From Blastococcus sp. TF02A-26 (GTDB lineage Bacteria; Actinomycetota; Actinomycetes; Mycobacteriales; Geodermatophilaceae): a stretch of 64,000 nt of DNA. Positions 2,249 to 63,329 of the stretch are shown here, in pieces; the first letter of the stretch is position 1; every line of letters starts with the position of its first letter. Position numbers and translations under genes: made by a program. The notes beneath the pieces are model-generated. The model ran no database searches, was not told where the DNA came from, and saw only the letters and a program-made list of their open reading frames with translations. The stretch spans positions 1 to 64,000 of the forward strand of contig NZ_QOHG01000001.1 of NCBI RefSeq assembly GCF_003319125.1. The letters run 5' to 3'.

Positions 2249-3133
2249 GTGGAGCCCACCGACAGCCGCGCCCCCGAGCTGCAGACGCTCACGCCGGGCC
2301 AGTTCGACGTCGTCCAGTTCGCCGTCCTGGGTGCGGGCTTCGCGCTGCTGGCCTACCTCCTGTACTCGTGGGCGAGCCGGGACGAGGTGTCGGCGCGCTA
2401 CCGCCCCTCGGCGTACGCGGCGATCTGCCTGGCGGCGGTGGCGACACTCGCCTATGCCGTCCTGTACTCCGACGTCGACAGCGGCTTCCGGCTCACCGGC
2501 GGGGTGTACGTGCCGACCGAGGAGGCGCGGACGACGGAGGGGACCCGGTACATCGACTGGTCGGTGACCGTCCCGCTGCTGACCGTCGAGCTGCTCGCGG
2601 TCTGCTCGCTGGCCGGTGCCCGGGCACGGCGGGTGCGGGCCGGGGCGATGGCGTCGGCGTTCCTGATGATCGTCACGGGCTACCTCGGCGCCCAGGTGGT
2701 GGGGGAGGGCCGGGACACCGTCGCCCTGGTCGTCTGGGGGCTGATCAGCACCGCCTTCTTCGCCTACCTCTACGTGGCGCTGATCGCGGCGGTCCGCGCG
2801 TCGCTGCCGACCATGGGGGAGGAGGCGGCGACCAGCCTGCGCAACGCCACGATCGTGCTGCTCAGCAGCTTCGGCATCTACCCGCTGGTCTACGCGGTGC
2901 CGGTCTTCGTCGACGTGACGGCGGCCTGGTACACCGCGATGCAGGTCTCGTACTCGATCGCCGACGTCATCGCCAAGATCGGTTTCGGCGTGCTCGTGCA
3001 CAAGGTGGCGAAGCTGCGTACGGCGGAGGACGTCGCGGCCGGCGTCGACACCCATCCCGAGCCGGTGTGGTCGAGCAACGTGCGCAAGAGCGAGGGTGTG
3101 CAGCCGGAGGTCCGCCGGATCGCCGAGCGGTGA
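2249..3133 (+). CDS. Microbial (type I) rhodopsin, proton-pump motif
   Basis: A 294-residue seven-helix protein. Helix C reads R100-Y-I-D103-W-S-V-T107-V-P-L-L111 and ends at E114, the D-T-E triad of proteorhodopsin-type outward proton pumps. L111 corresponds to the green/blue tuning position, where Leu predicts green absorption. K243 in helix G (codon 2975-2977, within DVIAKIGFG) is the retinal Schiff-base lysine. G164 in the WGLIST stretch of helix E may be the glycine that opens a carotenoid-binding fenestration. Helix B lacks the usual proteorhodopsin His. GTG 2249 was chosen because earlier in-frame starts run into the divergent gene and would add a non-membrane leader. No retinal-forming gene is adjacent. 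Confidence 0.9.
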   Translation: MEPTDSRAPELQTLTPGQFDVVQFAVLGAGFALLAYLLYSWASRDEVSARYRPSAYAAICLAAVATLAYAVLYSDVDSGFRLTGGVYVPTEEARTTEGTRYIDWSVTVPLLTVELLAVCSLAGARARRVRAGAMASAFLMIVTGYLGAQVVGEGRDTVALVVWGLISTAFFAYLYVALIAAVRASLPTMGEEAATSLRNATIVLLSSFGIYPLVYAVPVFVDVTAAWYTAMQVSYSIADVIAKIGFGVLVHKVAKLRTAEDVAAGVDTHPEPVWSSNVRKSEGVQPEVRRIAER

Positions 3134-3136
3134 GAC

Positions 3137-3586
3137 TCAGGCCGGTTCGCGCCGCATGGGCACGTGCGGGATGCCGTCCTCGTCGCAGCCGGGGCCGCTG
3201 CGCCGGAAGCCGAAGCGCTCGTACCAGCTCTCGAGGTGGGCCTGCGCGCCGAGCGTGATCGGGTACCCCGCGCAGAGGTCGATGCCGGCCTCGATGAGCC
3301 GGGCGGCATGGCCCGCGCCGCGGTGGGCCGGCGCGGTCGCGACCCGGCCGATCGCCCGGGTCGCGCCGTCGTCGAGCACCCGGATGGTGGCCGCCACCTC
3401 GCCGTCGACCTCCGTCCAGAGGTGCAGCGTGGCCGGCTCCACGTCCCGTCCGTCGAGCTCCGGATAGGGGCACTCCTGCTCCACGACGAAGACGTCGACC
3501 CGCAGCCGGCACAGCGCGTAGACCTCGAACGGGGTCAGGTCGGCGAAGCGGGCGGTGCGGAGGACGGGCGACGACGGGGCGGACAC
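3137..3586 (-). CDS. ElaA-like GNAT N-acetyltransferase
   Basis: A 149-residue GNAT enzyme. The N-terminal LCRLRVDVFVVEQECPYPELDGRD pattern is typical of the ElaA subgroup. R-V-A-T-A-P-A-H-R-G-A-G-H-A at about residues 90-103 is the acetyl-CoA pyrophosphate loop, and W-Y-E-R-F-G-F-R near the end is the C-terminal GNAT motif. It should acetylate a small amine from acetyl-CoA; the substrate is unknown. GTG 3586 gives the natural ElaA length; the open frame continues far upstream only because of GC richness. It is convergent with the rhodopsin gene, with 3 bases between them. Confidence 0.85.
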   Translation of the reverse strand: MSAPSSPVLRTARFADLTPFEVYALCRLRVDVFVVEQECPYPELDGRDVEPATLHLWTEVDGEVAATIRVLDDGATRAIGRVATAPAHRGAGHAARLIEAGIDLCAGYPITLGAQAHLESWYERFGFRRSGPGCDEDGIPHVPMRREPA

Positions 3587-3644
3587 CGTGCAGTTGTAGC
3601 CCACCGTCGTCCGGGGAGGTCCGCCACGTCGGGCACACTCGTGT

Positions 3645-3663
3645 TTAGGTGTGCCTCGCCTAC
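3645..3663 (+). promoter_or_regulatory. IdeR/DtxR iron box upstream of the ferric transporter
   Basis: The 19 bases beginning TTAGGT and containing GCCT and CCTA match the actinobacterial iron box (TTAGGTTAGGCTAACCTAA) at about 14 of 19 positions, with the left half perfect. It lies 16 bases before the GTG of the substrate-binding protein gene and upstream of its GGAGG, where a bound repressor would block transcription. The repressor is probably the IdeR encoded at 49868-50602. Confidence 0.7.
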
Positions 3664-3679
3664 ACCCTCTGGAGGATCC

Positions 3680-4699
3680 GTGAACACCGCCGGGCGCGTG
3701 ACCGCCGCCGTCCTCACCGCCGTCGCCGTGGCCGGCACGGTCGCCGGCTGCGGCTCCGACGACGCCGACGGCGACACCCTCACCGTCTACAGCGCCCAGC
3801 ACGAGAGCCTGGTGCGCACGATGCTCGAGGACTTCACCGAGGAGACCGGCATCGAGCTGGAGTTCCGCGAGGGCAACGACGCCGAGCTCGCCAACCAGAT
3901 CGTGCAGGAGGGCGAGGCCTCGCCGGCCGACGTGTTCCTCACCGAGAACAGCCCGGCGATCGACGTCCTGGACCGCGAGGGGCTGCTCGCGCCCCTGGAG
4001 CAGGCGACGCTGGACCAGGTCGGCGCGCAGTTCCGGCCCTCGTCGGGCACCTGGACCGGCTTCGCGGCGCGCTCGACGGTCCTGGTCTACAACCCGGCGC
4101 AGCTGCCGGAGTCCGAGCTGCCCGCGTCGATCCTCGACCTGGCCGACCCCGAGTGGGAGGGCCGCATCGGGATCGCGGCCGGTGGCGCGGACTTCCAGGC
4201 GATCGTCAGCGCCGTCCTCGCGCTGCGCGGGGAGGACGAGACCCGCGCCTGGCTCGAGGGCCTGGAGCGCAACGCCGACGTCTACCAGAGCAACACCGCG
4301 GTCATGACCGCCGCCGACGAGGGCGAGATCGACGCCGGGATCATGTACCACTACTACTGGTACCGGGACCAGGCCGAGAACGCCCTGCGCGGGGACGACG
4401 CGGCGCTGCACTTCTTCCGCAACGCCGACCCCGGTGCGTTCCTCAGCGTCTCCGGCGCCGGGGTCCTCGCCTCGTCCGACCAGCAGGAGCAGGCGCAGCG
4501 GCTGGTGGAGTACCTGACCAGCCCGGCGGCGCAGGAGCGGCTGGCCCGCAGCTCCGCCCTCGAGTACGCCGTCGGCACCGGGGTGGCGTCGGCCGAGGCG
4601 CTGCCGCCGCTGGACACCCTCGGCGCACCGGACGTCGACCCGGGTGGGCTGGACCAGCAGCGGGTCACCGAGCTGATGCAGGACGTGGGGCTGCTCTGA
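3680..4699 (+). CDS. fbpA: Ferric iron ABC transporter, substrate-binding lipoprotein
   Basis: A 339-residue extracellular solute-binding protein of the FbpA/SfuA type. A short signal peptide ends in V-A-G-C, a lipobox, so the mature protein is tethered to the outer face of the membrane. The segment Y223-H-Y225-Y226-W-Y holds the paired tyrosines that bind Fe3+ in FbpA proteins. GTG 3680 has an ideal GGAGG at 3671-3675. It is the first gene of a three-gene operon with permease and ATPase and sits behind an iron box. Iron as substrate is supported by the Tyr pair and the box together. Confidence 0.88.
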   Translation: MNTAGRVTAAVLTAVAVAGTVAGCGSDDADGDTLTVYSAQHESLVRTMLEDFTEETGIELEFREGNDAELANQIVQEGEASPADVFLTENSPAIDVLDREGLLAPLEQATLDQVGAQFRPSSGTWTGFAARSTVLVYNPAQLPESELPASILDLADPEWEGRIGIAAGGADFQAIVSAVLALRGEDETRAWLEGLERNADVYQSNTAVMTAADEGEIDAGIMYHYYWYRDQAENALRGDDAALHFFRNADPGAFLSVSGAGVLASSDQQEQAQRLVEYLTSPAAQERLARSSALEYAVGTGVASAEALPPLDTLGAPDVDPGGLDQQRVTELMQDVGLL

Positions 4700-6299
4700 G
4701 CACCCCGACGTCGCTCCCGGTCCCCGGGACGCCGGCCCCTCCGGCGCCCCGGGGACCGCGCGCGTCCGCGGGCGGCCTGCGCGAGCTGCGCCGCTCGCCG
4801 GTGACCGTGCTGCTGGCCACCGCCGTGGCGGCCCTCGCCCTGGTGCCGCTGGGCTACATCGTCACCGGCGCCCTGGACATCGGCTGGAGCGGGATCTCCG
4901 AGCTGGTGTTCCGCGAGCGGGTGGCCGAGCTGCTGTGGAACACCACCCGGCTCGTCGTCGGCACGGTCGTCGTCTGCGCCGTCCTCGGGGTGGGCGCGGC
5001 CTGGCTGGCGGAGCGCTCCGCGGTCCCCGGCCGCCGCGCGTGGCACGTGCTGCTCGTGGCGCCCCTGGCGGTGCCGGCCTTCGTCAACAGCTACGCGTGG
5101 ATCTCGCTGCTGCCGGGCCTGGACACCTATGGCGGCGCGCTGCTGGTGGTGTCCCTCTCCTACTTCCCGTTCGTCTACCTGCCGGCGGTCGCCGCCTTCC
5201 GCGGTCTGGACCCCGCGCTGGAGGACACCGCACGGGGACTGGGCCTCTCCACCTGGGCGGTCTTCCGGCGGGTCCAGCTGCCGCAGCTGCGGGTGGCGGT
5301 GCTCGGCGGCAGCCTGCTCATCGCCCTGCACGTCCTGGCGGAGTTCGGCGCCTTCGCCATGCTCCGCTACCCGACGTTCACCACGGCCATCTACGACCAG
5401 TACCGGGCGACCTTCAACGGCCCCGGCGCGACCGCCCTGGCCGGGGTGCTCGTGCTGCTGTGCCTGGCGCTCCTGGTGGCCGAGCTGCGGCTGCGCGGCT
5501 CGCGCGGCTACGCCCGCACCGGGGCCGGCGTCGCCCGCCCGTCGCGGCCGGTCCGCCTCGGCCGGCTCACCCTCCCGGCGCTGGCCGGGCTCGCCGCCCT
5601 GGTCGGCCTGGCCGTCGGCGTGCCGCTGGCCAGCCTGGGCACGTGGCTGGCCCGGGGTGCCTCGACCGCGCTGGACCTCGGGGAGCTCGCCACCACGACC
5701 GGCACCACGCTGGGCCTGGCCGCCGCGGCCGCCGCGGTCACCACGGCGATGGCCCTGCCCACCGGCTGGCTGGCGGTCCGCCGGCGCGGCCCGGTGAGCA
5801 CGCTGCTGGAGCGCAGCACCTACCTGGGCAGCGCCGTCCCGGGGATCGTCATCGCGCTGGCGCTGGTCACGGTGAGCATCCGGGCCACCCCCTGGCTGTA
5901 CCAGACCGTGCCGGTGCTGCTGGCCGCCTACGCGATCCTGTTCCTGCCCCGGGCGATCGTGACGGTGCGGGCGGCGGTGGAGCAGTCGCCCCGGCTCTAC
6001 GACGACATCGCCGCCTCCCTCGGGGCCTCGGCTCCCGACCGGCTGCGGCGGGTCACGCTGCCCCTGCTCGCGCCGGGCATCGGCGCGGGAGCGGCGCTGG
6101 TGTTCCTGGCCGTGGTCACCGAGCTCACCGCCACCCTGCTCCTGGCCCCGACCGGGACGACGACGCTGGCGACGGCGTTCTGGTCCTCCAGCAGCGCCCT
6201 GGAGTACGGCGCCGCCGCCCCGTACGCGGTGGTGATGGTGCTGCTGTCGGCTCCGGCTACCGTGCTGCTCTCCCGAGACGCCCGACGAGGTCTGACCAC

Positions 6300-6303
<4 letters not shown>
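4696..6303 (+). CDS. fbpB: Ferric iron ABC transporter, fused two-domain permease
   Basis: A roughly 535-residue inner-membrane permease of the FbpB/ThiP type with two homologous halves of about six helices each. Each half has an EAA coupling loop: LEDTARGLGLSTWAVFRRVQLP near residue 180 and YDDIAASLGASAPDRLRRVTLP near residue 440. No ATG, GTG or TTG stands at a sensible place. The frame enters at CTG 4696, which overlaps the upstream TGA as CTGA, so a CTG start with coupled translation is likely. The alternative, GTG near 4801, would begin right at the first helix. The stop overlaps the ATPase start. Confidence 0.85.
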
Positions 6304-7397
<1,094 letters not shown>

Positions 7398-7430: not shown

Positions 7431-7449
7431 TTAGGTGTGCCTACGCTCA
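7431..7449 (+). promoter_or_regulatory. IdeR/DtxR iron box upstream of the aldolase gene
   Basis: This site begins TTAGGTGTGCCT, the same 12 bases as the box at 3645, then diverges in the right half. It ends 6 bases before the GTG start at 7456. A TACGCT that could serve as a -10 (7442-7447) lies inside the box, 8 bases before GTG, so the transcript may be leaderless and directly blocked by repressor. The right half is weaker than at the other two boxes. Confidence 0.6.
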
Positions 7450-7455
7450 CGCCTC

Positions 7456-8250
7456 GTGGACCTGTTCCTCTTCACCGTCGACCCCCGCTGGGGGCGGGAC
7501 GTCGTCGCCGCCGGCGCGGCCGGGATCGTCGTCGACTGGGAGCGCCGCGGCAAGCACCGCCGGCAGCGCGGCGAGGGCACCCAGATCAACGCCGACACCC
7601 TCGACGACCTCGTCCGCATGCGGGCGGCGACCGACGGCCGGCTCGTCTGCCGGATCAACGGCTACGGACCGTGGACCGCGGGCGAGGTGGCCGACGCGGT
7701 CGCCGCCGGCGCCGACGAGCTGTTCCTGCCCATGGTCCGCGGCACCGAGGAGGTCGACCGCACGCTCGACCTGGTGGCGGGCCGGTGCGGGCTCGGCATC
7801 CTGGTCGAGACCCAGGACGCCGTCGACCGGGTCGACGCCCTGGCCCGGCGGCCGCTGTCGCGGATCTACGTCGGTCTCAACGACCTGCGGATCGACCGGC
7901 GCAGCAGCTCGCTGTTCCAGCCCCTCGTCGACGGGACGGTCGAGGCGGTGCGGGCCGCCGTCGCGCAGCCGTTCGGCGTCGGCGGCCTGACGCTGCTGGA
8001 GGGCGGCTCGCCGGTGCCCAGCAGGCTGCTGGCGGCCGAGCTCGTACGGCTGCGGACGGACTTCACGTTCCTCCGCCGGTCGTTCACCGCCGACATGGCC
8101 GGCCGTGACCCGTCCACCGAGGTGCCGGCGCTGCTGGCCGGCCTGCGCGAGCTGGCGGCGGCCGACCCCGCCCTGGCCGGCGCGCGCCGCGACGACCTCG
8201 TCGCCGCGGTCACCGGCCAGGCGGACCCGTCGGTCGCCTCCCCGGCCTGA
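7456..8250 (+). CDS. HpcH/HpaI aldolase / citrate lyase beta-like protein
   Basis: A 264-residue TIM-barrel enzyme of the phosphoenolpyruvate/pyruvate superfamily. Visible active-site elements are the R-I-N strand near residue 70, F-L-P-M-V-R near 95, the metal-binding Glu in L-V-E-T-Q-D-A-V (about 117) and the Asp in V-G-L-N-D-L (about 140). Relatives cleave or form C-C bonds to pyruvate or acyl-CoA; the exact substrate cannot be read. GTG 7456 lies just below an iron box. It is followed after 11 bases by an epimerase-like gene and a glycosyltransferase, which suggests it makes a precursor for a glycan rather than degrading aromatics. Confidence 0.75.
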   Translation: MDLFLFTVDPRWGRDVVAAGAAGIVVDWERRGKHRRQRGEGTQINADTLDDLVRMRAATDGRLVCRINGYGPWTAGEVADAVAAGADELFLPMVRGTEEVDRTLDLVAGRCGLGILVETQDAVDRVDALARRPLSRIYVGLNDLRIDRRSSSLFQPLVDGTVEAVRAAVAQPFGVGGLTLLEGGSPVPSRLLAAELVRLRTDFTFLRRSFTADMAGRDPSTEVPALLAGLRELAAADPALAGARRDDLVAAVTGQADPSVASPA

Positions 8251-8261
8251 GGCGGACGCCG

Positions 8262-9119
8262 GTGCGTGCGCTCGTCACCGGAGCCGGCGGGTTCGTCGGC
8301 CGGCACCTCGTGCGGCGGCTGCGGTCCGACGGCTGGGACGTCGTCGCCCTGACCCGGCTCGACGTGGACCTGGCCGATCCGCTCGCCGGAGCCGCGGCGG
8401 TCCGGGCGGCCGATCCCGACGTGGTCTTCTCCCTGGCCGCCGGGCGGGCGAAGGCGACGCCCGCGGAGCGTGCCGCCACGCTGGCGGTGAACACCAGCCC
8501 GTGGCTGGTCGACGCGCTGCCCGACCGCTGCCGCGCCGTCGTCCGGCTCGGCTCCTCGACGGAGTACGCCGCCGGTCCGGCCCCCCTCGCCGAGGACGCG
8601 CCGCTGCGGCCCCGCGGGTTCTTCGGCGCGACCAAGGCCGCGGGCTCGCTGCTGCTGCAGGCCGCGGCGGCCGAGCGCGGGGTCCGCTCGGCGGTGCTGC
8701 GGGCCTTCCAGGTGTACGGCCCGGGCGACCACCCGACCCGGCTGGTGCCCGTCGTCCTCGCCGCGGCCCGCGACGGCGGCACCGTGCCCCTGCCGGCCGC
8801 GGTGAGCCGGCGCGACTGGGTGTGGGTCGGGGACGTGGTGGACGCCTGCGTGCGGGCCGCTCTGGCGGACGACCTCCCGCCGGGCCAGGTGCTGAACGTC
8901 GGCACCGGCGTGCAGACCAGCACCGAGGAGCTGGTGGCTGCCGCCGAGCGGGCCACCGGGCGGGCCATCGCCACCGCGCCCGGTGCGCATCCCGGGCGGT
9001 CGTGGGACACCGCCGACTGGGTCTGCGACCCGCGCGCGGCGGCGGAGCTGCTCGGCTGGCGGCCCACCGTCGCGCTGGACGAGGGACTGGCCCGCACGTG
9101 GGCGGAGGACCACGCGTGA
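8262..9119 (+). CDS. NAD-dependent epimerase/dehydratase-like protein, catalytic Tyr replaced by Phe
   Basis: A 285-residue extended SDR of the sugar-nucleotide epimerase/dehydratase type. The dinucleotide motif GAGGFVGRHL is at residues 7-16, the Ser/Thr segment LGSSTEYA near 105, and VYGPG and W-V-W-V-G-D-V-V-D-A later. The expected Y-x-x-x-K catalytic pair reads F-G-A-T-K (about residues 127-131): Lys is present but Tyr is Phe, read directly from TTC codons. It may be a reduced-activity or differently tuned enzyme. GTG start. The stop overlaps the next gene by four bases. Confidence 0.8.
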   Translation: MRALVTGAGGFVGRHLVRRLRSDGWDVVALTRLDVDLADPLAGAAAVRAADPDVVFSLAAGRAKATPAERAATLAVNTSPWLVDALPDRCRAVVRLGSSTEYAAGPAPLAEDAPLRPRGFFGATKAAGSLLLQAAAAERGVRSAVLRAFQVYGPGDHPTRLVPVVLAAARDGGTVPLPAAVSRRDWVWVGDVVDACVRAALADDLPPGQVLNVGTGVQTSTEELVAAAERATGRAIATAPGAHPGRSWDTADWVCDPRAAAELLGWRPTVALDEGLARTWAEDHA

Positions 9120-9790
9120 GCGGGCCGCGGGTGGCCGTCGTCGTCCCCGTCTACGGCAACGCCGACACGCTCCGGCCCCTGGCCGCCCGGCTGGGCGCGG
9201 CCCTCGGGGGACGGGACTGGCGGCTGCGCCTGGTCGTGGACGCCTCTCCCGACGACAGCGACCGCGTGGCGCACGAGCTCACCGGCGAGGACTCCCGCAT
9301 CGCCGCGACGCTGCTGATCGAGAACGTCGGCCAGCACGCCGCGCTGGCCTCCGGCCTGGCTGCCGAGCCGGACGCCGACGTGTGGGTGTGCATGGACGCC
9401 GACTTGCAGGACCCGCCGGAGGCCGTGCCCCTGCTGCTGGACCGGCTGGCGTCCGGGGACGTCGGTGCGGTCTTCGCCGGCCGGCGCGGTCGCTACACGT
9501 CCCCGCTGCGGCGGCTGACCGGTGGGCTGCACCGCCGGGTGGCCGCCCGCCTGACCGGTCTGCCCCCGGACGCGGGGGCGTTCCTCGCGATGGGGCCGGC
9601 GGTGCGCGCGGCGGTGCTCGCCGAGCAGGCGCCCAGCATCGTGCTCGCGGTGGGCCTGGCCGGGCACCCGGTGGCCAGCGTCCCGGTGGCGCGCGACGCC
9701 CGGCCCAGCGGGCGCTCGGCCTGGACCGCGCGGGCGCGGCTGGCGCAGTCGGTCCGCTCGCTGCGGTGGGCCCTGCGCCGCCGTCACTGA
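9116..9790 (+). CDS. GT2 glycosyltransferase of the dolichol/undecaprenyl-phosphate sugar type, no membrane tail
   Basis: A 224-residue family 2 glycosyltransferase. VVVPVYGNADTL starts the GT-A fold, N-V-G-Q-H-A-A-L-A-S-G follows, and M-D-A-D-L-Q-D-P-P-E (about residues 90-99) is the signature of DPM1/GtrB/ArnC enzymes that load a sugar onto polyprenyl phosphate. GtrB-type proteins usually add two C-terminal membrane helices; none is visible here. GTG 9116 overlaps the preceding TGA. The membrane GT-C enzyme at 10618 could use the lipid-linked sugar, though it is on the other strand. Confidence 0.8.
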   Translation: MSGPRVAVVVPVYGNADTLRPLAARLGAALGGRDWRLRLVVDASPDDSDRVAHELTGEDSRIAATLLIENVGQHAALASGLAAEPDADVWVCMDADLQDPPEAVPLLLDRLASGDVGAVFAGRRGRYTSPLRRLTGGLHRRVAARLTGLPPDAGAFLAMGPAVRAAVLAEQAPSIVLAVGLAGHPVASVPVARDARPSGRSAWTARARLAQSVRSLRWALRRRH

Positions 9791-10527
9791 GGGCGCGCGG
9801 CCCGCAGCGGCGCCGTCGTCCGGTCGGCGACGACCCGGCCGGCGACCAGGACCGAGACGCGGTCGGCGAGCCGGTCCGCCTCGTCCGGGTCGCGGGTGGA
9901 CAGCAGCACCGTCGTCCCGGCGCGGACGAGGGCGCGCAGCACCGCCGCCACCTCGGCCCGGCAGTGCGGGTCCAGGTCCTGCGTCGGCTCGTCGAGGAGC
10001 ACCAGTTCGGGCCGGACGACGATGCTCGCGGCCAGGTCGAGCCGCCGGCGCATGGCGGGGGACCAGGTAGCCAGCGGGCGCCCGGCGGCGTCGGAGAGCC
10101 CGAACCCGGCGAGCAGCTGGTCGGTGCGCTGCAGGGCCGCCGGCCGCGAGTAGCCGAGCAGCCGGGCCAGCCACAGGAGGTTCGCGCCGCCGCTCAGCTG
10201 CTCGTCGAAGCCGGCCGACCGCCCGGTGCGGCCCACGCGGGCGCGCACCTCGTCGGCCTCGGTGACGACGTCGGCGCCGAGCACCCGCACCGATCCGCCG
10301 GCCGGGCTCAGCCGGGCGGCGAGGACGTCCAGCAGCGTCGTCTTGCCGGCGCCTCCGGGTCCGCAGACCGCGTGCACGCAGCCGGCCGGGACGTGCAGGT
10401 CCACTCCGTCGAGCGCCCGCACCCCGCCGACCACGACGACCAGGCCGTCGGCCGCGACGGCCGGGCTCGCGCGCGGGGCGCCGGGCTCCTGCGCCGCCGC
10501 GAGCCGGCCGGGGACGTCCGGTGCCAC
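9784..10527 (-). CDS. Orphan ABC transporter ATP-binding protein with altered signature
   Basis: A 247-residue ATPase resembling the DrrA/ABC-2 export class. Walker A is GPGGAGKTT (about residues 56-64), Walker B LVLLDEPTQDLD, with D-P-D-E-A-D-R-L after the switch region. The ABC signature is T-W-S-P-A-M-R-R-R-L rather than LSGGQ, and the switch His is replaced by Arg in S-T-R-D. No permease is encoded beside it, so its partner must be elsewhere or it has a non-transport role. It is convergent with the GT2 gene, overlapping 7 bases. Confidence 0.75.
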   Translation of the reverse strand: MAPDVPGRLAAAQEPGAPRASPAVAADGLVVVVGGVRALDGVDLHVPAGCVHAVCGPGGAGKTTLLDVLAARLSPAGGSVRVLGADVVTEADEVRARVGRTGRSAGFDEQLSGGANLLWLARLLGYSRPAALQRTDQLLAGFGLSDAAGRPLATWSPAMRRRLDLAASIVVRPELVLLDEPTQDLDPHCRAEVAAVLRALVRAGTTVLLSTRDPDEADRLADRVSVLVAGRVVADRTTAPLRAARPQ

Positions 10528-10617: not shown

Positions 10618-12060
10618 TCACCGGGTCCACAGCTGCAGCACGAGGTCGGTCTTGCTGCCGCGGAACGACCACTCGCGGGTCACCGCGAGCCCCGCGTCGG
10701 TGAGCAGGTCGACGTCGTCGGTGCCGGAGTAGCCGCCCGGGATCTGCCGGCGGACCAGCCACACCCGGTCGGCGTCCGGCGGGGCGTCGTCGGGCGGGAG
10801 GAAGAGGTCGGCGCGCAGCTCCGGGACCTCGGTGCGCACGTAGTGGTCCAGCCCCATCGCCGAGCGCAGGTCGGCGCCCACGACCGGCTCGCCCGGACGG
10901 TGCAGGTCGGCGAGCACCTCGGCCAGCCGGTCGGCCTGCTCGCGGGGCTCCCGGTCGGCCATCGGAGCGCTCGCCAGGAGGGAGAAGCCGACGAGCAGGG
11001 CGCCGACGGCGGCCCGGGCGCCGCGCGGGAGGGCGAGCGCTCCGGCCGCGGCGAGGACGCCCAGCCCGAGCAGGCCGGCCAGCAGGTAGCGGGGCAGGAA
11101 CACCGGGCGGGCCAGCTCGGCGACCAGCAGCAGTCCCAGCGGCACGAGCACCCAGCAGGCGCCGAGGACCCGCGCGCCCCGCCCCCGCACCGCGCCCAGC
11201 ACCGCCAGCGCGACGGTGAGGTACAGCAGCGGGGTCCGGCCGCCGGCCCACGCCTCGAGGGCCAGCCGGACGAGGGCGCCGTCGGTGTCGCGCAGGTGCT
11301 CGGCGTTGCGGCTGCCGACGCCGTTGACCAGGTTCATCCCGACCAGGCCGACGGCCGGCAGGGCGGCCAGCGTGCCGACGACGGCGACCGGGAGCGCCCG
11401 CCGGCGACGGAGCACGAGCGCACCGACGACGAACGCGGCGAGCACCGTGACCGCGTACCAGTGCATGAGCCCCATGCCCGCGCCCGCGAGGCCGAAGAGG
11501 AGCAGCCCGCGGGGCGCGCCCTGGAGCCACCGGACGAGGCCGAGCAGGGCGCCGCTGGTGGCCAGCACGGCCAGGCCGTAGCTGCGCGCCTCGACGGACT
11601 GCTCCAGCAGCAGCGGGTTCGCGGCGAGCGCCAGGCCGGCCAGGACCCCGGTCGCCCGGCCGGCGAGGCGGCCGACCGCGCGGGTGACCAGGGCGATCCC
11701 GCCCGCCGTGGCGAGGAGGGAGAGCACGCGGAGGGAGGTGTCGCCGCCCAGGCCCGGCAGCAGCGTCCAGAGGTGGACGACGAGGTAGTACGGGGCGTTG
11801 TACGAGGGCGGGACGCCGGCCAGGTAGCTCGTCGTCGCCTCGCCGCTGGTCGCCGCGTGCACGATGTCGGCGAACGGCAGCCGGGCGACCTCGGCGGTGA
11901 ACAGCTCGTCGAACCACAGACCGTGCCCGGCGGAGAGCAGCACGGTGCCCAGGACCACCAGCAGCGCCGGTGGCAGCAGCTCCAGGAGCGGAGCCCAGCG
12001 GCGGCGGGCCGACGGCGGGGGAGGCGGCACCTGCGCTCCCTCGACCGTCGGCGCCGCCAC
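10618..12060 (-). CDS. GT39/ArnT-like membrane glycosyltransferase (GT-C fold)
   Basis: A 480-residue integral membrane protein with about ten to eleven hydrophobic helices and a soluble C-terminal part of about 110 residues. In the first outer loop, G-L-W-F-D-E-L-F-T carries the acidic pair used by GT-C enzymes to bind metal and polyprenyl-phosphate sugar. V-E-A-R-S-Y-G-L further on is also typical of the PMT/ArnT group. It should move a sugar from a lipid carrier to an acceptor outside the cytoplasmic membrane; the acceptor is unknown. GTG 12060 lies 6 bases from a TACCCT -10, indicating a leaderless message. Confidence 0.75.
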   Translation of the reverse strand: MAAPTVEGAQVPPPPPSARRRWAPLLELLPPALLVVLGTVLLSAGHGLWFDELFTAEVARLPFADIVHAATSGEATTSYLAGVPPSYNAPYYLVVHLWTLLPGLGGDTSLRVLSLLATAGGIALVTRAVGRLAGRATGVLAGLALAANPLLLEQSVEARSYGLAVLATSGALLGLVRWLQGAPRGLLLFGLAGAGMGLMHWYAVTVLAAFVVGALVLRRRRALPVAVVGTLAALPAVGLVGMNLVNGVGSRNAEHLRDTDGALVRLALEAWAGGRTPLLYLTVALAVLGAVRGRGARVLGACWVLVPLGLLLVAELARPVFLPRYLLAGLLGLGVLAAAGALALPRGARAAVGALLVGFSLLASAPMADREPREQADRLAEVLADLHRPGEPVVGADLRSAMGLDHYVRTEVPELRADLFLPPDDAPPDADRVWLVRRQIPGGYSGTDDVDLLTDAGLAVTREWSFRGSKTDLVLQLWTR

Positions 12061-49867: not shown

Positions 49868-50602
49868 TCAGAGCCGCGGCGCCGCCTGGGCGGGGGTCAG
49901 CTCCTCGTCGAGGGCGTTCACGAAGACGTGCTGCGCGACGCCGGCCGGGAGCAGCTCGCCGTCGACGCTGACGCTGTCCCGCTCGGCGCGGGCGGTGACC
50001 GTCGCGCCGGGGCGCAGCCCCTGCTCGGCGAGCGAGCGGATGAGGTCGGTGTCCTCCTGCAGCTGCTCGCTGATCCGCCGGATCTCGACCCGGCGGCCGT
50101 CCGGCGTCGCCGTCGTGGACAGCAGCGTCAGGGCGTCGAGCACCGCGGAGGTCTCCCCGCCGATGGGCACCGCGGGGGACTCCCCGCCGAGCTGGTCCAG
50201 ACCCGGGATCGGGTTGCCGAAGGGGGAGACCGTCGGGTTGCCGAGCAGCGCGAGCAGCTTCTTCTCCACCGCCTCGCTCATGACGTGCTCCCACCGGCAC
50301 GCCTCCTCGTGGACGTCGGCGTACTCCAGGCCGATGACGTCGACGAGCAGGCACTCGGCCAGTCGGTGCTTGCGCATGACGGCGGTGGCCAGGCGACGGC
50401 CCTCGTCCGAGAGCTGCAGGTGCCGGTCGCCCTCGACCGTGAGCAGGCCGTCGCGCTCCATCCGGGCCACCGTCTGGCTGACGGTCGGGCCGCTCTGGTG
50501 CAGCCGCTCCGCGATGCGGGCACGGAGGGGGACGACGCCCTCCTCCTCCAGCTCGAAGATCGTCCGGAGGTACATCTCCGTGGTGTCGATCAGATCGTTC
50601 AC
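49868..50602 (-). CDS. ideR: Iron-dependent repressor IdeR/DtxR
   Basis: A 244-residue three-domain metalloregulator. The winged helix (about 1-72) has the recognition helix [11 protein letters not shown]. Metal ligands fall at the same numbers as in DtxR/IdeR: M10, H79, E83, H98, C102, E105, H106. A C-terminal SH3-like domain follows from about residue 165. With Fe2+ bound it represses genes carrying TTAGGT-type boxes, three of which I find in this window. GTG 50602 has GAGGAG upstream. It is divergent from acuC. Confidence 0.95.
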
Positions 50603-50764
50603 AACTCTCCTCGGTGTCACCGCTCATCGTACGGGCGGGGGGCGACTTCCCAGGTTTGCCGCAGCAGGGGAACGGTGCCACGCTGCTCCGGATTCCCGGC
50701 GGTAGCGTCGGGGGGTGAGGATCGGGGCCCCACCGGCCGGCAGGACAGCGAGCGGGGAGAGAGC

Positions 50765-60125: not shown

Positions 60126-61177
60126 AGGGAGCCTCCGGCGCGGTTTGTGCGGACGATCAGGTAGATCAGGTACGGCGCCCCGAGCACGCCCGTGACGACG
60201 CCGACGGGGTAGCGCGTCCCGAGGCCGAACTGCCCCACGAGGTCGGCGACGAGCACCAGCAGGGCGCCGACCAGGGCGGCCGGGACGAGCAGCGAGCCGT
60301 TCGGCCCGACGATGCGCGCGGCGATCGGGCCGGCGAGGAACGACACGAACGCGATCGGCCCGCAGGCCGCGGTGGCGAAGGCGACCAGGCCGACCGCGCA
60401 CACGATGGCGATCAGCCGCGTGCGCTCCACCCGCACGCCCAGCGCCGCGGCGGTGTCGTCCCCGAGCTGCAGCGTCGAGAGGTTGCGGGTCTGCCCGAGC
60501 AGGACCGGCCCCAGCACGGCCAGCGCGACCAGAGCCGGCGCCACCGCCGACCAGGTGGTGCCGTTGAGGCTGCCGGTCAGCCAGCGCAGCGCCTCCTGGT
60601 AGTCCCACTGCCCGGCCTTGGTCAGGACGTACTGGATGACGCTGTTGAGCATGGCGCCGACGCCGATCCCGATGAGGATCAGCCGGGTGCCGGCCACGCC
60701 GCCCTTGTAGGCGAGGCCGTAGATGACCATCGCGACGCCCAGGGCGGCGACGACGGCGAGCGTCGAGACGGTCGCGCCGTCCAGCGACAGGACGACGATG
60801 CCGAACACCGCGGCCGCGCTGGCGCCGGAGCTGATGCCGATGACGTCCGGGCTGGCCAGCGGGTTCCGCAGCATCGTCTGGAAGGCGACACCGGCCAGGC
60901 CGAAGCTCAGCCCGGCGACGACGGCGAGCACGGCACGGGGGAGCCGCAGCCGCCCGACGGTGAACGTCGCGCCGGGCACCTGCTCGCCCAGGACGACCCG
61001 GACGACCTCGTCGATCGGGTAGAAGGTGCGCCCGATCATCAGGGAGGCGACGAACCCGGCGACGACCAGCACCGAGAGCACGGTGATCACCAGGCGCCGG
61101 CGGGTCGAGCGGCGCACGCGGTCCCGGGCGACCCGGTCGACGGTGCCTGCGGCCGGGGGCGTTCCGACGGCGGTCAC
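60122..61177 (-). CDS. Fe-siderophore ABC transporter permease 2 (FecD/FepG type)
   Basis: A 351-residue BtuC-family permease with about ten helices. R-L-R-L-P-R-A-V-L-A-V-V-A-G near residue 80, R-N-P-L-A-S-P-D-V-I-G-I-S-S-G-A near 110 and G-P-I-A-F-V-S-F-L-A-G-P-I-A-A-R in the coupling region are diagnostic. With its partner it forms a heterodimeric channel. GTG 61177 overlaps the upstream stop by four bases. Confidence 0.93.
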   Translation of the reverse strand: MTAVGTPPAAGTVDRVARDRVRRSTRRRLVITVLSVLVVAGFVASLMIGRTFYPIDEVVRVVLGEQVPGATFTVGRLRLPRAVLAVVAGLSFGLAGVAFQTMLRNPLASPDVIGISSGASAAAVFGIVVLSLDGATVSTLAVVAALGVAMVIYGLAYKGGVAGTRLILIGIGVGAMLNSVIQYVLTKAGQWDYQEALRWLTGSLNGTTWSAVAPALVALAVLGPVLLGQTRNLSTLQLGDDTAAALGVRVERTRLIAIVCAVGLVAFATAACGPIAFVSFLAGPIAARIVGPNGSLLVPAALVGALLVLVADLVGQFGLGTRYPVGVVTGVLGAPYLIYLIVRTNRAGGSL

Positions 61178-62217
61178 AGCTCGCGCACCTTCTGCCGGCG
61201 GACGACGGCGATGAAGAACGGGGCCCCGACGAGGGCGGTGATGATGCCGACGTCGAGCTCGCTGGGGCGGGCCACGATCCGGCCGATCACGTCGGAGGCG
61301 ACGAGCAGGCAGGCACCGGTCAGGGCGGAGAAGGGCAGCAGCCAGCGGTGGTCTACGCCGACCAGGAGCCGGCACAGGTGCGGCACGACGAGCCCGACGA
61401 ACCAGATGGGGCCGGCGACCGCGGTGGCCGCGCCGCAGAGCAGCACCGAGCCCAGCGCCGCGAGGCCGCGGGCGAGGGCGACGCGCTCCCCGAGCCCGGC
61501 CGCGAGCTCGTCGCCCAGCGCCAGGGAGTTGAGGCTGCGCGCCGAGAGCAGGCTGATGACCAGGCCGGCGGCGAGGAAGGGCAGCACCGGCGTGATGGTC
61601 GCGAAGGTCGCGCCACCCACGCCGCCGACCTGGAACGACTGCACGCTGGCGGCGATGTCGCCGCGGGGCAGGGCGATCGCGGTGATGAACGACGTCAGCG
61701 CCGCCGACGTGGCGGCGCCGGCCAGGGCCAGCTTCAGCGGCGTCGGACCGCCGCGGCCCAGGGAGCCGACGGCGTAGACGAACACCGCGGCGAGCGCGGC
61801 TCCGAAGATCGCCGTGAAGATGATGCTGGTCGCGCTGAACAGCCCGAACCAGGCGATGCCGGCGACCACGGCCAGCGAGGCGCCCATGTTGATGCCGAGG
61901 ACGCCCGGGTCGGCCAGCGGGTTGCGCGTCACGCCCTGCATCACCGCGCCGGCCAGCCCGAGTGCCGCGCCGACGAGGACGGCCAGCACGGTGCGGGGGA
62001 TGCGCTTGGTGACCGCTGCCTCCTCGATGGTCTCCTCGGAGCCACCGAGGGCGGCCCAGATGTCGGACCAGCCGACGCCGCGCGAGCCGATCGCCACCGA
62101 CGCGGCGAAGAGCAGCGCGAGGACCGCCAGGACCACGACCAGCCAGAGGAACCGGACCGACCCCGGACGTCGCCGCGGGGCGACGTCCGGGGTCGGGACG
62201 GGGTGGACCGAGGTCAC
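61174..62217 (-). CDS. Fe-siderophore ABC transporter permease 1 (FecC/FepD type)
   Basis: A 347-residue BtuC-family permease. R-I-P-R-T-V-L-A-V-L-V-G-A-A-L-G-L-A-G-A and R-N-P-L-A-D-P-G-V-L-G-I-N-M-G-A mark the family, with the coupling segment G-P-I-W-F-V-G-L-V-V-P-H-L-C-R. It has about ten helices. GTG 62217 lies 37 bases from the stop of the binding protein gene, so it belongs to the same iron-boxed operon. Confidence 0.93.
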   Translation of the reverse strand: MTSVHPVPTPDVAPRRRPGSVRFLWLVVVLAVLALLFAASVAIGSRGVGWSDIWAALGGSEETIEEAAVTKRIPRTVLAVLVGAALGLAGAVMQGVTRNPLADPGVLGINMGASLAVVAGIAWFGLFSATSIIFTAIFGAALAAVFVYAVGSLGRGGPTPLKLALAGAATSAALTSFITAIALPRGDIAASVQSFQVGGVGGATFATITPVLPFLAAGLVISLLSARSLNSLALGDELAAGLGERVALARGLAALGSVLLCGAATAVAGPIWFVGLVVPHLCRLLVGVDHRWLLPFSALTGACLLVASDVIGRIVARPSELDVGIITALVGAPFFIAVVRRQKVREL

Positions 62218-62254: not shown

Positions 62255-63274
62255 TCACGAGGCCGGGGAGCCGGCCTTGTCGGCGGCCTCGGCCAGCATG
62301 CTCACGTAGTCCTCGAGCACCCAGGAGATCGCCAGCGGGGTCGGGTTGGCCGCCGTGCCCAGCGGGGTGTCGGGCAGCAGCACGATGGCACCATTGGCCA
62401 CGGCCGGCATCCGCGACAGCAGCGGGTCGGCGCTGAGCGCGTCGACGAGCTCCTGGTCGCCGTAGGTCACGATGACCTCGACGTCGTCGAGGGTGTCGAT
62501 CTGCTCGGCGCTGATCGTGCCGGAGAACTGCTCCTCGTCGGTGGAGGCGTCCGCGACGCTCGGCGGGGTGGCCAGGCCGAGGTCCTCGAAGAAGGCGGCC
62601 CGGGTGTCGAAGGGTGTGTAGTAGCTGACCTCGCTGAGGTCCGTGGTGTCCACGTGGGTCAGGAACATCGTGTTCCGCCCCTCGAGCTGCGGGAACTCGC
62701 CGACCGTCTCGGCCATCTCCTGCTCGAGGTCGGCGACGAGCTGCTCGCCCTCCTCGGCCATGCCCATTCCGGCGGCGTTGATCTCGATCATCTCGCGCCA
62801 CGGGGTCGCCCAGGGCGCCTCGGGGAAGGCGATGGTCGGCGCGATCTCGCTGAGGGTCTCGTAGTCCTCCTCGGTGAGACCGGAGTAGCCGGCGAGGATG
62901 ACGTCGGGCTCGGTGTCGGCGACGGCCTCGAAGTCGATGCCGTCGGTCTCGTCGAACAGCACCGGCGTCTCGGCGTCGAGCTCCTCGAGCCGCTCGGAGA
63001 CCCAGGGGAGCAGGCCGTCGCCGTCGTCGTCACCGAAGTTGGCCGCGGCCATGCCGACGGGGACGACGCCGAGGGCCAGCGGCACCTCGTGGTTGGCCCA
63101 GGCGACCGTGGCGACCCGCTCGGGCTTCCCCTCGATCGTCGTCGTGCCGAACGCGTGCTCGACGGTGAAGCTGTCGCCGCTCGCGCTGTCGTCGGAGTCG
63201 TCGCCGCAGGCGGCGAGGCCGCCGACGAGGAGCGCGGCGGTGGTCAGGGCGGCCAGTCGCGAGGCGCGGCGCAT
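62255..63274 (-). CDS. Fe-siderophore ABC transporter, substrate-binding lipoprotein
   Basis: A 339-residue FecB/FepB-type binding protein. The signal ends in L-A-A-C-G, a lipobox near residues 20-23. V-E-H-A-F-G-T-T-T-I-E-G-K-P-E-R-V-A-T-V is the typical opening of the mature domain, and the two lobes are joined by one long helix, as in class III binding proteins. The ligand (hydroxamate, catecholate or haem) cannot be told from sequence alone. It is the first gene of the operon, directly below an iron box. Confidence 0.92.
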   Translation of the reverse strand: MRRASRLAALTTAALLVGGLAACGDDSDDSASGDSFTVEHAFGTTTIEGKPERVATVAWANHEVPLALGVVPVGMAAANFGDDDGDGLLPWVSERLEELDAETPVLFDETDGIDFEAVADTEPDVILAGYSGLTEEDYETLSEIAPTIAFPEAPWATPWREMIEINAAGMGMAEEGEQLVADLEQEMAETVGEFPQLEGRNTMFLTHVDTTDLSEVSYYTPFDTRAAFFEDLGLATPPSVADASTDEEQFSGTISAEQIDTLDDVEVIVTYGDQELVDALSADPLLSRMPAVANGAIVLLPDTPLGTAANPTPLAISWVLEDYVSMLAEAADKAGSPAS

Positions 63275-63310: not shown

Positions 63311-63329
63311 CCAGGTGAGGCTTGCCTTA
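63311..63329 (-). promoter_or_regulatory. IdeR/DtxR iron box of the Fe-siderophore operon
   Basis: On the minus strand the site begins TAAGGCAAGCCT and continues CACCT, matching the iron-box consensus at about 15 of 19 positions. It ends 36 bases before the ATG at 63274. It is the best of the three boxes in the window. Confidence 0.75.

Follow-up and report, generated by a model that had tools for sequence, protein, structure and literature searches.

A putative iron-repressed glycosylation cassette that travels with a ferric transporter in Geodermatophilaceae

In the 64-kb stretch of Blastococcus sp. TF02A-26 DNA analysed here (the window, which lies at the start of a contig), three closely spaced plus-strand genes follow an IdeR/DtxR-type iron box just downstream of a ferric transporter operon with an iron box of its own. 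They encode an aldolase-like barrel protein (ALD), a short-chain dehydrogenase/reductase (SDR) and a family 2 glycosyltransferase (GT2), and a convergent gene beyond them encodes a multi-spanning glycosyltransferase of the GT-C type (GT-C). We favour, with moderate confidence, the reading that these four genes form an iron-repressed glycosylation cassette that co-travels with the FbpABC-type transporter and modifies the envelope in a way that aids ferric uptake. This reading starts from the gene order, the co-occurrence, the iron boxes and the altered active sites, all of which are observed in the sequence. An earlier note on this DNA had described the three genes and their box, and both are confirmed by the coordinates, the protein families and the box sequence; the cassette is nevertheless larger than that note stated, since the GT-C gene had been missed. 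The family concerned, Geodermatophilaceae, comprises bacteria of soil and rock, Blastococcus and Geodermatophilus among them, and Blastococcus endophyticus and related strains are the closest named relatives when ranked by ALD identity.

Results

Conservation and co-inheritance of the cassette

We gathered 71 loci; because these include the window's own copy and repeat genomes, counting was done on the 40 named records (L031-L070). The ALD, SDR and GT2 genes keep the same order and strand in 70 of the 71 loci, the exception being a distant Clostridiales contig (L071), and they are in order in 40/40 named loci. The earlier note had taken the three genes for a unit that scattering in related genomes would disprove; they are not scattered, and their constant order in the named loci rules that alternative out. 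The GT-C gene lies downstream on the opposite strand in 38/40 named loci, the two without it (L058 and L061) both being cut by contig ends. The ferric transporter is directly upstream in 36/40; the other four are L064, L065, L066 and L068, and in the last of these (Acidimicrobiia) it is found beyond the GT-C gene in the opposite orientation.

A presence/absence survey of 112 family genomes followed the ALD, GT-C and ferric-binding genes. Of the 112, 54 have both ALD and the GT-C gene, 58 have neither and none has one without the other (Fisher p 3e-33, uncorrected for kinship); in the subset of 90% completeness or more, each gene was found in 53/96 genomes. The ferric-binding gene was detected in 74/112 genomes at E<=1e-20, and at 73% identity or more in exactly the 54 that bear ALD (in G010 it is split across two contigs, and G016 has a second copy at 37%). 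Both states occur within four genera, with the cassette present in 2/3, 20/23, 8/16 and 22/26 genomes, some of the absences being incomplete genomes. This distribution suggests several gains or losses and makes a single ancestral event unlikely. Across the phylum ALD is rare, being found in 3 of 396 sampled genomes, one of them the window's own.

The label "ferric" is well founded, since the binding protein matches solved ferric-binding proteins, the best being 8k7n ("ferric iron ABC transporter, iron-binding protein", E 1.9e-103) and SfuA (4.4e-103). This homology, which bears out what had been said of the neighbour, places the transporter among the FbpABC/SfuABC systems. NCBIfam names below the cut-off had pointed to a 2-aminoethylphosphonate transporter, a label dropped for the ferric one after comparison with the solved structures.

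The iron box

The cassette box, TTAGGTGTGCCTACGCTCA, and the transporter box, TTAGGTGTGCCTCGCCTAC (at 3645), have their first 12 bases in common, as the earlier note had remarked; a correction to it is that the 3' half of the cassette box is weaker in the window than in most relatives. To score such sites we used a matrix made from eight of the 11 genome-wide sites of a 19-base pattern (TWAGGN9CCTWA, one mismatch). The cassette box was not in the training set, and left out as well were the transporter box and two sites unlike iron boxes (C37:854 and C48:10501), which were dropped before genes were examined. Judged by a reading of their sequences, the open reading frames (ORFs) beside the eight sites include two for FecB-like binding proteins, two for permeases (one of FecCD type, one FTR1-like), one each for a siderophore-interacting protein and a pyridoxal phosphate (PLP)-dependent decarboxylase, and a pair whose products, each about 259 residues long, are similar. 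Within the window the transporter box ranks highest (21.67), followed by a box at 63311 (21.23) and by the cassette box (16.84), and no position reached 16.84 in 40 simulated 64-kb windows (first-order Markov; mean maximum 9.25). With one mismatch allowed, TTAGGTGTGCC has 2 matches in the window against 0.26 expected, at least 2 being obtained in 4 of 100 shuffles. Of the shorter pattern TTAGGN4CCTA the 4.68-Mb genome has 2 instances (one a palindrome read on both strands), the cassette box among them; as the reversed control gave 1 forward and 1 reverse match, this count indicates rarity and not enrichment.

Sites scoring at least 14 number 78 across the 40 named loci: 38 are at ALD, 35 at the binding-protein gene, 5 at GT-C and 0 elsewhere. 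A chance box was rejected on this placement, on the rarity of the short pattern, on the shuffles and on the matrix score against the simulated windows. Among 50 distinct ALD upstream regions (the window's included) 45 score at least 14 and 36 at least 16.84, those below 14 being L020 (13.9), L021 (10.8), L054 (8.7, though it carries TTAGGACAACCTAAGCT), L068 (4.6) and L071 (-5.4). In an alignment of 45 distinct upstream regions from the family, the columns of TTAGG and of GCCTA are each kept in 43-45/45, whereas the spacer is kept in 23-25/45 at three of its four columns. Conserved arms around a mostly free spacer are the pattern of a protein-binding site, and the boxes of L064 and L065 are full 19-bp palindromes (26.8 and 25.5; that of L066 scores 17.1). 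Matrix, placement and footprint support the iron box described earlier and show it to be conserved and IdeR-like.

ALD starts with GTG, 6 bases past the end of the box, and a -10 candidate (TACGCT in the window, TAAGCT in most relatives) lies 8 nt before the start codon. The overlap of the 3' arm with this TAnnnT element, so close to the start codon, suggests a leaderless promoter open to blockage by a repressor bound at the box; the ALD-SDR-GT2 transcript is probably leaderless, a reading based on what is known of actinobacterial promoters. GT-C promoters score at least 10 in 22/38 loci, against 0.6% of random window stretches. The genome has one DtxR-family gene (a single PF02742 match at E<=0.001), so that a promoter iron box and a candidate regulator coexist and the box may be regarded as a predicted operator of an IdeR/DtxR regulon. 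This lone PF02742 gene shares the window with three iron boxes.

The four proteins

The SDR belongs to the epimerase family (PF01370, E 2.4e-38; 132.3 bits against a cut-off of 20.9) and has the TGxxGFxG motif (TGAGGFVG). Its YxxxK pair is broken: the catalytic Tyr is lost, with Phe (F121, within FFGATK) in 70/70 rows, while Lys125 is retained (Lys in 70/70), as is Ser98; the rows include the window's copy and repeats of some genomes. The change to Phe noted earlier is therefore a fixed one. In distant relatives the position is Arg (L080) or, in the GDP_Man_Dehyd-type SDR of L079, Tyr. The closest solved relative is MoeE5 (Z 34.5, root-mean-square deviation (rmsd) 2.3, 275 aligned, 34% identity). 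According to PMC7984243, the Y149F mutant of Bacillus cereus UDP-glucuronate 4-epimerase loses about 1200-fold of its activity, and a loss of that size makes a role as plain epimerase unlikely for the SDR; Glu101 was considered as a candidate substitute base.

ALD falls under the curated 25-bit cut-off of PF03328 HpcH_HpaI (E 6.5e-4, 19.5 bits), while its relatives L079 (40.1 bits) and P0001 (39.7) do pass. Its AlphaFold2 (AF2) model (pLDDT 91.8) matched pyruvate kinases in Foldseek, with HpaI and an acyl-CoA lyase at TM about 0.6; in a structural second look the best pyruvate kinase gave Z 21.0 (rmsd 3.3, 217 aligned), and the best 50 rows were all pyruvate kinases (Z 20.3-21.0), a list from which the lack of HpaI and the acyl-CoA lyase does not count against a kinship with them. 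The fold matches thus identify ALD as a barrel of the phosphoenolpyruvate (PEP)/pyruvate superfamily. Aligned with L109, annotated as a 2,4-dihydroxyhept-2-ene-1,7-dioate aldolase, it keeps D27, E29, R66, E118 and D143, and the E118 and D143 regions align with HpaI as well. E118, D143 and R66 are presumably the metal-ligand Glu and Asp and the substrate Arg of HpcH/HpaI, and ALD would be a metal-dependent barrel enzyme. The His of the DxEH motif, which we take to be catalytic, is present in L109 (DCEH) and is replaced by R, W, Y or I in 7/7 aligned subfamily members (Arg in the window), all of which have a K-x2-R-Q motif (E-x3-K-x2-R-Q) that L109 does not. With the canonical His gone, the pyruvate-aldol chemistry proposed for ALD in the earlier note is not upheld.

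The GT2 matches PF00535 (E 6.4e-14; 52.7 bits against a cut-off of 23.3) and retains the DAD..QDPP motif, its core D94-A-D-L-Q-D-P-P being kept in 40 or 41 of 41 rows; against the ArnC equivalog NF007986 it scores 64.8 bits where 529 are called for. It had been described as lacking a membrane tail and indeed ends at residue 224, its sole weakly hydrophobic stretch (174-192) lying inside the domain; C-terminal membrane helices were not found in it or in six relatives, where hydrophobic stretches end at or before residue 192, within the domain. The window's GT-C stays under the curated cut-off of PF13231 PMT_2 (23.6 bits against 26.1), while 9 of 13 GT-C members match it at E<=0.01 (best 2.1e-7). 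Seven GT-C proteins analysed for hydropathy show 7 to 9 segments each, and a profile search of solved structures returned none at E<=0.1. Co-inheritance of this gene strengthens the lipid-carrier glycosylation route already suggested for the cassette.

Relatives outside the family

In L071 (uncultured Clostridiales), amid glycosyltransferase-like genes, ALD has on one side an ORF resembling sugar-phosphate transferases and on the other a D-2-hydroxyacid dehydrogenase, the one neighbour assigned by family search. On two Rhodobacterales plasmids, which have one common region, it belongs to a polysaccharide cluster, flanked by genes for asparagine synthase and for a member of the N-acetylneuraminate synthase family, and in L079, a distant contig of the same phylum, it is beside a class IV aminotransferase, a PLP decarboxylase and a GDP-mannose-dehydratase-type SDR. 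Residence in polysaccharide or nonulosonate clusters favours the view that enzymes of the ALD subfamily help to make a glycan building block. For this subfamily it also sits badly with the earlier statement that such aldolases rarely pair with glycosyltransferases. That statement and the pyruvate-aldol reaction are the parts of the note left without support, as against the unit, the box, the ferric neighbour and the lipid-carrier route. A further contig, L080, has ALD, SDR and GT2 in order (39-43%, 30-32% and 41%, respectively); its minus-strand ORF 2800-3795 is in the right place for GT-C, but profile comparison shows no likeness, so L080 was taken as ALD-SDR-GT2 only.

Neighbouring genes

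The features of the cassette and its surroundings are collected in Table 1. Between GT2 and GT-C the window has an ABC ATPase gene (9784-10527, minus), an orphan with no adjacent permease in the window. Three loci (L031, L032, L034) have it at that place too, and L041 has a 59% relative there; it was not counted as a cassette member. Neither was a GNAT acetyltransferase gene (3137-3556, minus) that is divergent from the ferric transporter and a frequent neighbour across loci, because it was not found in L064, L065, L066 and L068. Its relative sits instead beyond the GT-C gene in L033, L038, L039, L042, L047 and L053. Near the boxed cassettes of L065 and L066 (Frankiales and Frankiaceae contigs) there is a cytochrome c assembly gene (PF01578; 74-856 and 59-880, respectively).

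At its far end the window holds what reads as a second iron-uptake operon, with genes for a FecB-like siderophore-binding protein (62255-63274, minus) and a FecCD-type permease (61174-62217, minus); the strong box at 63311-63329 (score 21.2) precedes the FecB-like gene. Elsewhere in the genome, an iron-box-like site (L107 1642 region, G000:C40:331841) lies between a ribosomal-protein-S4-like ORF and a divergent 258-residue ORF; the former is possibly a low-iron S4 paralogue.

Table 1. Features of the ferric transporter, the cassette and the presumed regulator in the window
Feature	Position	Strand	Evidence
Iron box of ferric transporter operon, IdeR/DtxR-type	3645..3663	+	TTAGGTGTGCCTCGCCTAC; matrix score 21.67, window's best; genome-wide pattern match
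Ferric-iron-binding lipoprotein, FbpA/SfuA-type	3680..4699	+	E 1.9e-103 to 8k7n
ABC permease, start codon not fixed	4699..6303	+	PF00528 E 1.6e-23
ABC ATPase with TOBE domain	6300..7397	+	PF00005 E 5.9e-34; PF08402 E 8.3e-10
IdeR-type iron box of cassette	7431..7449	+	Matrix score; phylogenetic footprint over 45 distinct upstream regions
Probable -10 element TACGCT	7442..7447	+	Sequence and conserved columns; overlaps 3' half of box
ALD, TIM-barrel C-C lyase/aldolase-like protein, PEP/pyruvate superfamily, distant HpcH/HpaI relative	7456..8250	+	PF03328 19.5 bits; AF2 pLDDT 91.8; fold matches
SDR, extended sugar-nucleotide type, Phe for catalytic Tyr (11 nt after ALD)	8262..9119	+	Pfam; F121 in 70/70 rows; MoeE5 Z 34.5
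GT2, polyprenyl-phosphate-type, without membrane tail (4-nt overlap with SDR)	9116..9790	+	ArnC and sll0501 are best solved relatives
GT-C, multi-spanning PMT_2-like glycosyltransferase, convergent	10618..12060	-	PF13231 E 6.8e-5; co-occurrence with ALD
DtxR/IdeR-family gene, presumed regulator	49868..50620	-	PF02742 E 1.7e-27

Discussion

From these observations we infer regulation by IdeR, sugar-nucleotide chemistry, a polyprenyl carrier, external transfer and a benefit under iron starvation. When iron is plentiful, IdeR with Fe2+ would occupy the box and cover the -10 site, keeping the leaderless ALD-SDR-GT2 mRNA off; under iron starvation this mRNA would be made. ALD and the Tyr-less SDR might then turn a sugar nucleotide, or a small acyl or keto precursor, into an unusual activated sugar that GT2 would load on polyprenyl phosphate at the inner membrane face and that GT-C, after flipping, would pass to an outside acceptor such as a cell-wall glycan or an exported lipoprotein. 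The likely purpose would be an envelope modification that helps ferric iron to reach, or remain near, the FbpA lipoprotein. It is well established that iron starvation switches on uptake systems and ligands; the present data suggest that cells also alter their surface sugars once iron runs out. A literature search limited to open-access papers returned nothing that matches the cassette. If the reading is right, surface sugars would be linked to iron supply by an IdeR-type box placed before a dedicated route of lipid-carrier glycosylation, one that is inherited together with a ferric transporter. Moreover, the two enzymes with a fixed loss of textbook catalytic residues (Tyr to Phe in the SDR, the HpcH-type His to others in ALD) offer a chemistry open to direct assay.

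A bolder extension, which we think rather improbable, would make ALD and the Tyr-less SDR a new enzyme pair whose product, a branched sugar acid on the envelope, collects ferric iron for FbpA. The SDR would hold the sugar nucleotide in a keto or activated state while ALD attaches, or else takes off, a carbon unit bearing a carboxylate. The branched sugar acid would then be a metal-binding surface glycan, allowing iron uptake without a secreted siderophore.

Several observations weigh against the iron-repressed cassette as we propose it. No transporter was found in the 8 kb upstream of L064. Nine ALD-less family genomes carry a ferric-binding relative at 61-66%, from which it follows that the transporter does not need the cassette (11 further ALD-less genomes carry one at 36-42%). 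No box was found before ALD in L068 and L071, and none was seen by eye in L080, so iron control is not universal. The window's own GT-C promoter has no iron box (score -6.9), and the GT-C promoters of 16/38 loci score below 10. As for the genome-wide count, the reversed control of the 19-base pattern gave 10 sites where the pattern itself gave 11, which alone proves nothing, and the ALD fold is common to non-aldolases, namely pyruvate kinases.

A different reading is an iron-sparing role unconnected with iron capture, in which the cassette swaps an envelope sugar for one cheaper in iron, or toughens the wall in starvation, and its proximity to the transporter reflects nothing but common IdeR control. 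The distant actinobacterial relatives L064, L065 and L066 keep their boxes where no transporter was found, within the 8 kb just mentioned for the first and, for the other two, within 9.5-9.9 kb of sequence that include less than 2 kb upstream each. Yet the transporter binding protein is present in 54/54 ALD-bearing family genomes, and L068 retains cassette and transporter together in a different arrangement; we regard iron sparing as doubtful, though worth keeping in mind. The common iron-box type and the tight co-inheritance with the transporter would also fit a product that is secreted as a glycosylated, siderophore-like iron ligand and imported by that transporter. This is very unlikely in our opinion, as the pairing of GT2 with GT-C implies membrane chemistry with polyprenyl phosphate, none of the genes followed across the loci reads as a siderophore synthetase, and the transporter's binding protein belongs to the FbpA/SfuA type, which binds ferric iron without a siderophore. 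Finally, the cassette could be constitutive and its box no more than a strong leaderless promoter motif with a likeness to one half of an iron box: the 3' arm, CCTAAGCT, does hold the TAnnnT -10 element, and many GT-C promoters carry a similar CCTAaCCT core. A promoter motif would not explain why TTAGG, upstream of the -10 element, is as strictly kept as described above next to a four-base spacer with three variable positions, nor the full palindromes of L064 and L065, and we give this explanation the least credence of all.

Comparison with known systems

The favoured cassette resembles several known systems in part. ALD has the barrel fold of the HpcH/HpaI class II aldolases and retains their metal-ligand Glu/Asp and Arg, but it is without the DxEH His, has an additional E-x3-K-x2-R-Q motif and stays under the Pfam cut-off. 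The SDR is similar over its whole length in fold, and at 34% identity in sequence, to MoeE5 of the UDP-glucose and UDP-glucuronate 4-epimerases; these use Tyr, whereas the cassette SDR naturally has Phe. As a route, the cassette recalls the Arn pathway (ArnA/ArnC/ArnT), which places 4-amino-arabinose on lipid A, in having a sugar-nucleotide SDR, a GT2 with ArnC as best solved relative and, in GT-C, a multi-spanning transferase to which the lipid-linked sugar would serve as donor on the outer side. The cassette differs from it by adding an aldolase-like enzyme, a Tyr-less SDR, a tail-less GT2 and iron-box control. Another such route is the actinobacterial Ppm1/Pmt protein O-mannosylation (PMC5882110), which likewise combines a polyprenol-phosphate sugar donor with a PMT-type transferase; in contrast, the GT-C of the cassette is a weak PMT_2 match, and the cassette has sugar-modifying enzymes in the same unit and an iron box in front of it.

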